Shown here: positions 10,711-10,786 of the stretch, in pieces
Layout of the letters: every line of letters begins with the position of its first letter
Numbering within the stretch: position 1 is the stretch's first letter
Source: a virus
Length of the DNA: 59,183 nt
Reading direction: 5' to 3' (one strand)
IMG/VR virus record: IMGVR_UViG_3300046791_000370
Span: 1-59,183 of that record
Position numbers and translations under genes: made by a program
Notes under the pieces: model-generated
The model's database searches: none
Told to the model about the DNA's origin: nothing
What the model saw: the letters and a program-made list of their open reading frames with translations, nothing else

Positions 10711-10786
10711 GGGCGCAGGAGCAGGTTCGAGTCCTGCGTGGGTTGGCTTCGTCCAACCTTCTAGCTCAGGGGTAAGAGCGGCGCCC
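10711..10786 (+). tRNA. circularly permuted tRNA gene B (3' half before 5' half)
   Basis: 3' half first: GGCGC (10712-10716), variable AGGA, T-arm GCAGG-TTCGAGT-CCTGC (10721-10737), acceptor GTGGGTT (10738-10744). Then a 10-base linker GGCTTCGTCC. Then the 5' half: AACCTTC (10755-10761), TA, D-arm GCTC-AGGGGTAA-GAGC (10764-10779), G, GCGCC (10781-10785). The anticodon stem pairs perfectly (GCGCC/GGCGC). The acceptor has 6 of 7 pairs, and GG/CC extends it to a helix capped by a 6-base loop. The 3' half begins 2-3 bases after the CCA of tRNA-Ile. Joining the ends could give loop CGCTTAG (anticodon CTT, Lys) but with G at 33, so identity is tentative. Confidence 0.65.

Follow-up and report, generated by a model that had tools for sequence, protein, structure and literature searches.

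Positions 10711 to 10786 of IMG/VR virus record IMGVR_UViG_3300046791_000370, a stretch of 59,183 nucleotides that is referred to here as the window, directly follow a tRNA-Ile gene and were initially taken for a circularly permuted tRNA gene, in which the 3' half of the tRNA precedes the 5' half. Does this segment really encode the halves of one tRNA-like molecule and, if so, would that molecule be a tRNA?

A permuted tRNA-like unit abuts tRNA-Ile

Read base by base, the segment contains a permuted tRNA-like unit with the order T-arm, hairpin-capped acceptor and D-arm. Together with its immediate neighbors, it is composed of the following parts:

10633-10708, + strand: complete tRNA-Ile (GAT), with its CCA at 10706-10708 (ARAGORN; Rfam RF00005, 61 bits)
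10711-10716, + strand: 5' strand of the closing stem, GGGCGC, equivalent to anticodon stem positions 39-43 plus one pair (minimum-energy fold)
10717-10720, + strand: "variable" segment AGGA (sequence)
10721-10737, + strand: T-arm GCAGG-TTCGAGT-CCTGC, with loop TTCGAGT (sequence, fold and T-arm scan)
10738-10761, + strand: capped acceptor stem as a whole (fold)
10738-10744, + strand: acceptor 3' strand GTGGGTT (sequence and fold)
10745-10754, + strand: 10-nt linker GGCTTCGTCC, capping the acceptor, with GG/CC pairing (sequence and fold)
10755-10761, + strand: acceptor 5' strand AACCTTC (sequence and fold)
10762-10763, + strand: UA, positions 8-9 (sequence)
10764-10779, + strand: D-arm GCTC-AGGGGTAA-GAGC, with GG in the loop (sequence and D-arm scan)
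10780, + strand: G, position 26 (sequence)
10781-10786, + strand: 3' strand of the closing stem, GCGCCC, equivalent to positions 27-31 plus one pair (minimum-energy fold)
10787-10803, + strand: T-rich tract right after the closing stem, a possible 3' end by termination (weak terminator-like site)

The 3' half lies upstream of the 5' half, and both of the stems that are split by this arrangement are complementary. Across the 10-base linker, 6 of 7 acceptor positions pair (including one G-U pair, and with one T-T mismatch), to which the cap adds GG/CC, just as had been described. The perfect pairing of the outer ends (GCGCC/GGCGC) was likewise found, in a closing ("anticodon") stem that, at 6 bp, is one pair longer than claimed. 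Beyond the base-by-base reading, the swapped order of the halves is borne out by the ViennaRNA minimum-energy fold of positions 10709 to 10800, which is a permuted cloverleaf with all four helices. In its genomic order, the element was called by neither ARAGORN nor the Rfam tRNA model. Two bases (TA) separate the CCA of tRNA-Ile, ending at 10708, from the start of the element at 10711, which agrees with the spacing of 2 to 3 bases given in the preliminary description. On the far side, a terminator-like site (10776-10790, then CTTTTTCTTT) is weak, with one such site found versus 0.6 expected in shuffled sequences.

The two halves pair more often than chance allows

As a fold, the element is unremarkable: its energy corresponds to a z score of -1.27, and 23 of 2,000 shuffles gave the same bare topology. 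Since that topology is within reach of shuffled sequences and the energy is ordinary, significance rests on the presence of tRNA-specific parts in the right register. We used a null in which the T-sides and D-sides of different junctions were joined at random, scoring those with an acceptor of at least 6/7 and an anticodon stem of 5/5; the rate among such cross-paired halves was 3.6e-4 per T-arm/D-arm junction. With 15 T-arm/D-arm junctions in the window (both strands, linkers up to 70), about 0.005 matches would be expected at this rate, and one was observed. The pairing of the halves of 10711-10786 is not due to chance.

Other features of the window and the search for relatives

Two further features of the window were noted:

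10457-10564, + strand: second permuted element (T-arm/D-arm scan, minimum-energy fold and re-joining test)
47081-48178, + strand: RNA ligase (PHROG 968; Pfam RNA_ligase plus a PHA02142 OB-fold), with an unproven link to the element

In the second element, a T-arm (10466-10482) and the acceptor 3' strand GTTGCGC (10483-10489) are followed by a 44-nt linker containing the hairpin GACCCCGCCGAGTCGGGGTC, by the acceptor 5' strand GCGCGAT (10534-10540) and by a D-arm that begins at 10541; a stem GAGG/CCTC is also part of the unit. The acceptor pairs at 7/7 and the anticodon stem at 4/5 positions, the minimum-energy fold is again a permuted cloverleaf, and the element is called a tRNA once re-joined. 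GCGCGAT, directly before the D-arm at 10541, forms 7/7 pairs with the upstream T-arm at 10466 versus only 3/7 (counted by hand) with the downstream T-arm at 10599, its partner in normal order; the acceptor pairing of the second element is specific to the upstream T-arm. The T-arm at 10599 is part of an orphan (10599-10626) with acceptor strand GCCGGCA and TCCA, for which no matching D-arm was found in the genome. Farther upstream, positions 10143 to 10245 hold a normal-order tRNA-like structure with CCA, 5/7 acceptor pairs and a weak match to the tmRNA model, in which a long hairpin (TCTCCTCACGGCCCGAAAGGGGTGAGGGGG) takes the place of the anticodon loop.

A blastn search with the element returned tRNA fragments only and no sequenced homologue. 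Searches with the DNA polymerase, the terminase and a 205-amino-acid protein of the same phage gave no relatives in IMG/VR, and a search with its exonuclease gave three distant contigs only: L002 carries a large tRNA array, and the other two have no tRNA at all. Within the array of L002 (4650-4890) are tRNA-like units of miniature size that have a TGNAAAT T-loop and contain a GGAAAGACC segment.

Bare permuted elements recur in phage tRNA arrays

Viral contigs were searched for tRNA 3' halves located just past the CCA of another tRNA, excluding halves inside any ARAGORN tRNA. This yielded at least 109 distinct orphan 3' halves (window included), 78 of them with a D-arm within 70 nt, among the matches listed; the counts of this survey are lower bounds and reflect selection on T-loop and CCA patterns. 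Correct pairing with the downstream 5' half was found in 12 of these 78, among the matches listed, compared with 0.12 expected by re-pairing and a maximum of 2 in 300 re-pairing trials. Tandemly duplicated tRNAs were ruled out as the source of the complementary halves, neither half lying within an ARAGORN tRNA. At orphan junctions, acceptor pairing piles up at 7/7, with few cases at 6/7, among the matches listed.

The anatomy of these bare elements is that of the window element: they start 0 to 7 nt after an upstream tRNA or tmRNA and have a closing stem of 5 to 7 bp and a linker of 2 to 62 nt, and some are followed by the next tRNA within 4 to 11 nt. We propose to group them by a start within about 7 nt of a tRNA or tmRNA 3' end, no outer stem, an acceptor of at least 6/7 and a closing stem of at least 5 bp, all of which are found at 10711-10786. 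When the bodies were re-joined with an artificial anticodon loop, ARAGORN called a tRNA in 13 of 14 (10711-10786 and the second window element included), and in 23 of 182 cross-joined control bodies. Of the 14 records with a bare element, 7 encoded an RNA ligase (a weak match in two of them), compared with 7 of 31 controls, an enrichment that is suggestive only and not convincing.

In 257 Gb of GTDB genomes, from bacteria and archaea, the same pattern gave at least 98 matches, very few of which had a permuted partner; the permuted arrangement is thus mainly viral, and host genomes were dismissed as the source of permuted elements.

Two further arrangements were seen. First, 43 of the 109 orphan 3' halves that follow a complete tRNA carry an NCCA of their own (L166, L184, L187, L244 and others), among the matches listed, and these often share their acceptor strand with the adjoining complete tRNA. 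Second, one contig (L057, 7670-7840) has a tRNA within a tRNA: the outer one is complete except that its anticodon arm harbors a permuted tRNA-like core.

Compensatory changes in cluster M mycobacteriophages

Among the surveyed contigs with a bare element was Mycobacterium phage Rey. In Rey, Estes, MrMagoo, GenevaB15, Aziz and Reindeer (Mclasvirinae, host M. smegmatis), the element lies 2 to 3 nt after tRNA-Asn. Covariation was assessed on the four distinct cluster M sequences (Rey, Estes, GenevaB15 and Reindeer), in which 97.6% of pair cells are standard. Both partners have changed in 8 of 21 pairs, four of these lying in the acceptor and two each in the closing stem and the T stem. These values were reached in 0 of 500 shuffles, and sliding the partners by 1 to 3 columns lowered the pairing to 30 to 46%, with at most one compensatory pair. 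The compensatory changes that the preliminary description had suggested looking for in related phages are therefore present in cluster M, another phage group, and the covariation applies to that group and not to direct relatives of the window phage, none of which were found.

PegLeg and Bongo lack the unit, the conserved downstream block coming directly after tRNA-Asn; occurring in some phages and missing from others at this site, between tRNA-Asn and a conserved flank, the cluster M unit behaves as a discrete one. Like the element in the window, the cluster M elements start 2 to 3 nt after a tRNA 3' end and have a 7-bp capped acceptor. They are, however, unrelated to it in sequence and phage group and are kept across several phages, their closing stem is 5 bp long, and the ligase encoded beside their tRNA array is RtcB and not one of the Rnl type. 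No annotation as a permuted element was found in any of these cluster M phages, and in GenevaB15 a short annotated tRNA-Leu call overlaps it.

Rey, PegLeg, Reindeer and Nanosmite have a second permuted element directly after the tmRNA, its linker measuring 56 to 58 nt (post-tmRNA elements at L380 6493-6613, L384 1579-1701, L385 1310-1433 and L386 1600-1718). In its linker hairpin, the loop TCTGCAG or a similar one is kept, while the stem covaries. Finally, a conserved non-coding block (GGGGCATGGCCCATAAGC...) occurs after tRNA-Asn in cluster M phages (L384 2026-2150 and homologues).

A putative tRNA mimic without an anticodon

On the basis of these observations, we consider it probable that 10711-10786 encodes a genuine RNA resembling a tRNA, one that has been overlooked and that apparently lacks a functional anticodon. 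More specifically, we assign a probability of roughly 0.55 to its being an anticodon-less, permuted tRNA mimic that is derived from a tRNA, excised from a tRNA transcript and able to fold without splicing. Such an RNA gene would have arisen from a tRNA by circular permutation. It would be cotranscribed with tRNA-Ile, the 3' processing of which would free the 5' end of the element, and its 3' end might lie near the T-rich tract at 10787-10803 (weak terminator score). The RNA could then fold directly, with the T-arm, the hairpin-capped acceptor and the D-arm meeting at the elbow and with its 5' and 3' termini pairing in the place of the anticodon stem. It would act as a tRNA mimic, for which the YrlA module is the nearest functional precedent.

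Whether this applies more generally seems to us an even bet: phages might widely encode anticodon-less permuted tRNA-like RNAs in their arrays, excised by the processing of flanking tRNAs, under selection and without Ro60, and serving either as mimics against host tRNA-acting enzymes or defense nucleases or, once ligated by phage RNA ligases, as circular tRNA-shaped RNAs. If true, phage tRNA arrays would harbor an unannotated class of structured RNA that is missed by tRNA finders by construction, a notion that bears on the role, beyond decoding, of phage tRNA arrays with RNA ligases and on the origin of YrlA-type and permuted tRNAs. Since the same kind of unit is found in cultured M. smegmatis phages (Rey, Estes and Reindeer), expression, ends, circularity and function are testable there.

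Array debris, permuted tRNA genes and two-piece tRNAs

Could the element be mere recombination debris, left by a tandem tRNA duplication that lost its outer halves, and therefore paired-looking but inert? Phage arrays are indeed rich in orphan halves, as illustrated by those with an NCCA of their own (43 of 109, among the matches listed) and by the orphan T-arm with CCA at 10599-10626 in the window; moreover, permuted elements are not the same from phage to phage and seem to have arisen independently. Nevertheless, we deem this origin unlikely: each of the three variable stems shows compensatory changes in the cluster M homologues, the acceptor pairing at orphan junctions (mostly 7/7, few 6/7) is unlike decay, and one array of the window contains two intact permuted folds.

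Slightly less probable still, in our view, is a true circularly permuted tRNA, the ends of which would be ligated by an enzyme of the phage (its RNA ligase) or of the host and the capped acceptor of which would be opened by RNase P and 3' processing, followed by CCA addition, to give a decoding tRNA. In its favor, the re-joined body is recognized as a tRNA, the RNA ligase encoded in the window and the RtcB beside the array in cluster M phages keep ligation possible, and the ligase counts given above, suggestive only, point the same way. U33 is nearly universal in tRNAs, and T is indeed found at position 33 in three of the four cluster M sequences (Estes, GenevaB15 and Reindeer). In the window element, however, position 33 is G (the bases after the 5-bp stem read C G C T T, with C at position 32), and T occupies this position in no more than 3 of the 14 phage elements suited to comparison, among the matches listed, as chance predicts. 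Furthermore, CCA is not encoded in the linker, the acceptor contains the T-T mismatch, and the leader, of only 2 to 3 nt after the upstream CCA, is too short for an anticodon loop. The fold and the outer-duplex test revealed no bulge-helix-bulge and no helix outside the closing stem in which one could form.

Red algae, green algae and Thermofilum have permuted tRNA genes (PMC3978253; Chan 2011, PMC3218864) in which, as in the window element, the 3' half comes first, the acceptor strands are joined by a short intervening sequence, and the break lies in the anticodon arm. The algal and Thermofilum genes also combine a bulge-helix-bulge junction with a true anticodon and pass through a circular intermediate; nothing of the kind was seen for the window element. 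A review of permuted tRNA genes covers algae and one archaeon, with phages absent from its text (PMC3978253), and searches of the open-access literature turned up no phage example of a permuted tRNA gene. Of the initial interpretation as a permuted tRNA gene, the order, both split stems and the abutment on tRNA-Ile stand, whereas a circularized decoding tRNA of the algal or archaeal type is not supported (G33, no CCA, acceptor mismatch, no outer helix), nor is a decoding, spliced permuted tRNA at 10711-10786.

Permuted two-piece tmRNAs (ssrA) are processed by cutting of the capped acceptor in several bacterial groups and show that permuted tRNA-like domains with a capped acceptor have a precedent in bacteria. 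By analogy, the element might yield a two-piece tRNA, cut in the same way and chargeable, with an anticodon nick that is never ligated, and its full 7-bp acceptor stem, as opposed to the shorter YrlA cap, would suit such a product. We nonetheless find this improbable: CCA is not encoded, the linkers of comparable phage elements (2 to 62 nt, among the matches listed) have no shared processing site, and positions 3-70 of the window element are C-G instead of the G3-U70 alanine identity pair. Apart from that identity pair, the tmRNA features missing from 10711-10786 are the tag reading frame and a tmRNA model match, no Rfam tmRNA match being obtained there.

Comparison with YrlA

In presenting the locus as a permuted gene, the preliminary description had overlooked a precedent: bacterial and phage YrlA already has the order T-arm, capped acceptor, D-arm. 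Chen et al. reportedly described Y RNAs near Ro60 in bacteria and phages in 2014, and we know of no evidence for splicing of YrlA RNA, bacterial or phage. That 10711-10786 itself is a YrlA-type bacterial Y RNA working with Ro60 is highly improbable and already largely refuted, in spite of the common order, of Rfam YrlA (RF02553) being the second best match (21.3 bits) and of phage YrlA having been found beside TROVE genes, given that the 59-kb record contains no PF05731 (TROVE) match, that the score is no better than that of ordinary tandem tRNA junctions (23.0 and 23.6 bits), that the acceptor cap measures 7+2 bp versus about 5 bp with a 4-nt loop in YrlA and that a basal Y stem is absent (outer duplex z score of -0.2, versus values down to -6.2 in phage Y RNAs). 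Because tandem tRNA junctions score as high, the Rfam YrlA match was rejected as proof of a Y RNA; most phage YrlA score 28 to 49 bits with the same model. The sequence upstream of the element is tRNA-Ile.

Judging by the tests made, the predicted mimic would work like the tRNA module of YrlA yet is no YrlA. Both have UA between the acceptor (or its mimic) and the D-arm, a tRNA elbow, no anticodon and, by prediction in the case of the window element, a linear, unspliced RNA. YrlA differs in its short acceptor cap and in a long basal stem to which Ro60/Rsr binds; the window element, for its part, abuts a tRNA gene and combines a 6-bp closing stem and a 7+2-bp acceptor with the lack of a TROVE gene. 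The tRNA-like domain of YrlA is a substrate of the modifying enzymes DusA and TruB and also engages PNPase (PMC8394870); according to one proposal, YrlA competitively inhibits an anticodon nuclease (PMC7790460).

Scanning IMG/VR for T-arms and D-arms too close together for tandem tRNAs yielded at least 22 viral contigs, most of which fold as YrlA with an outer stem; a TROVE/Ro60 gene is present in 14 of the 22, among the matches listed, and none was found in the window. A broader scan greatly raised the number of permuted cores located outside annotated tRNAs; almost all of these had a Y-like outer stem, and TROVE was encoded in 17 of 29 records with such outer-stem cores, among the matches listed. 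Two jumbo-phage contigs contain tandem permuted Y-like RNAs, three in one (L127 2762-3121) and two in the other (L055 12926-13224), with no TROVE in the record.
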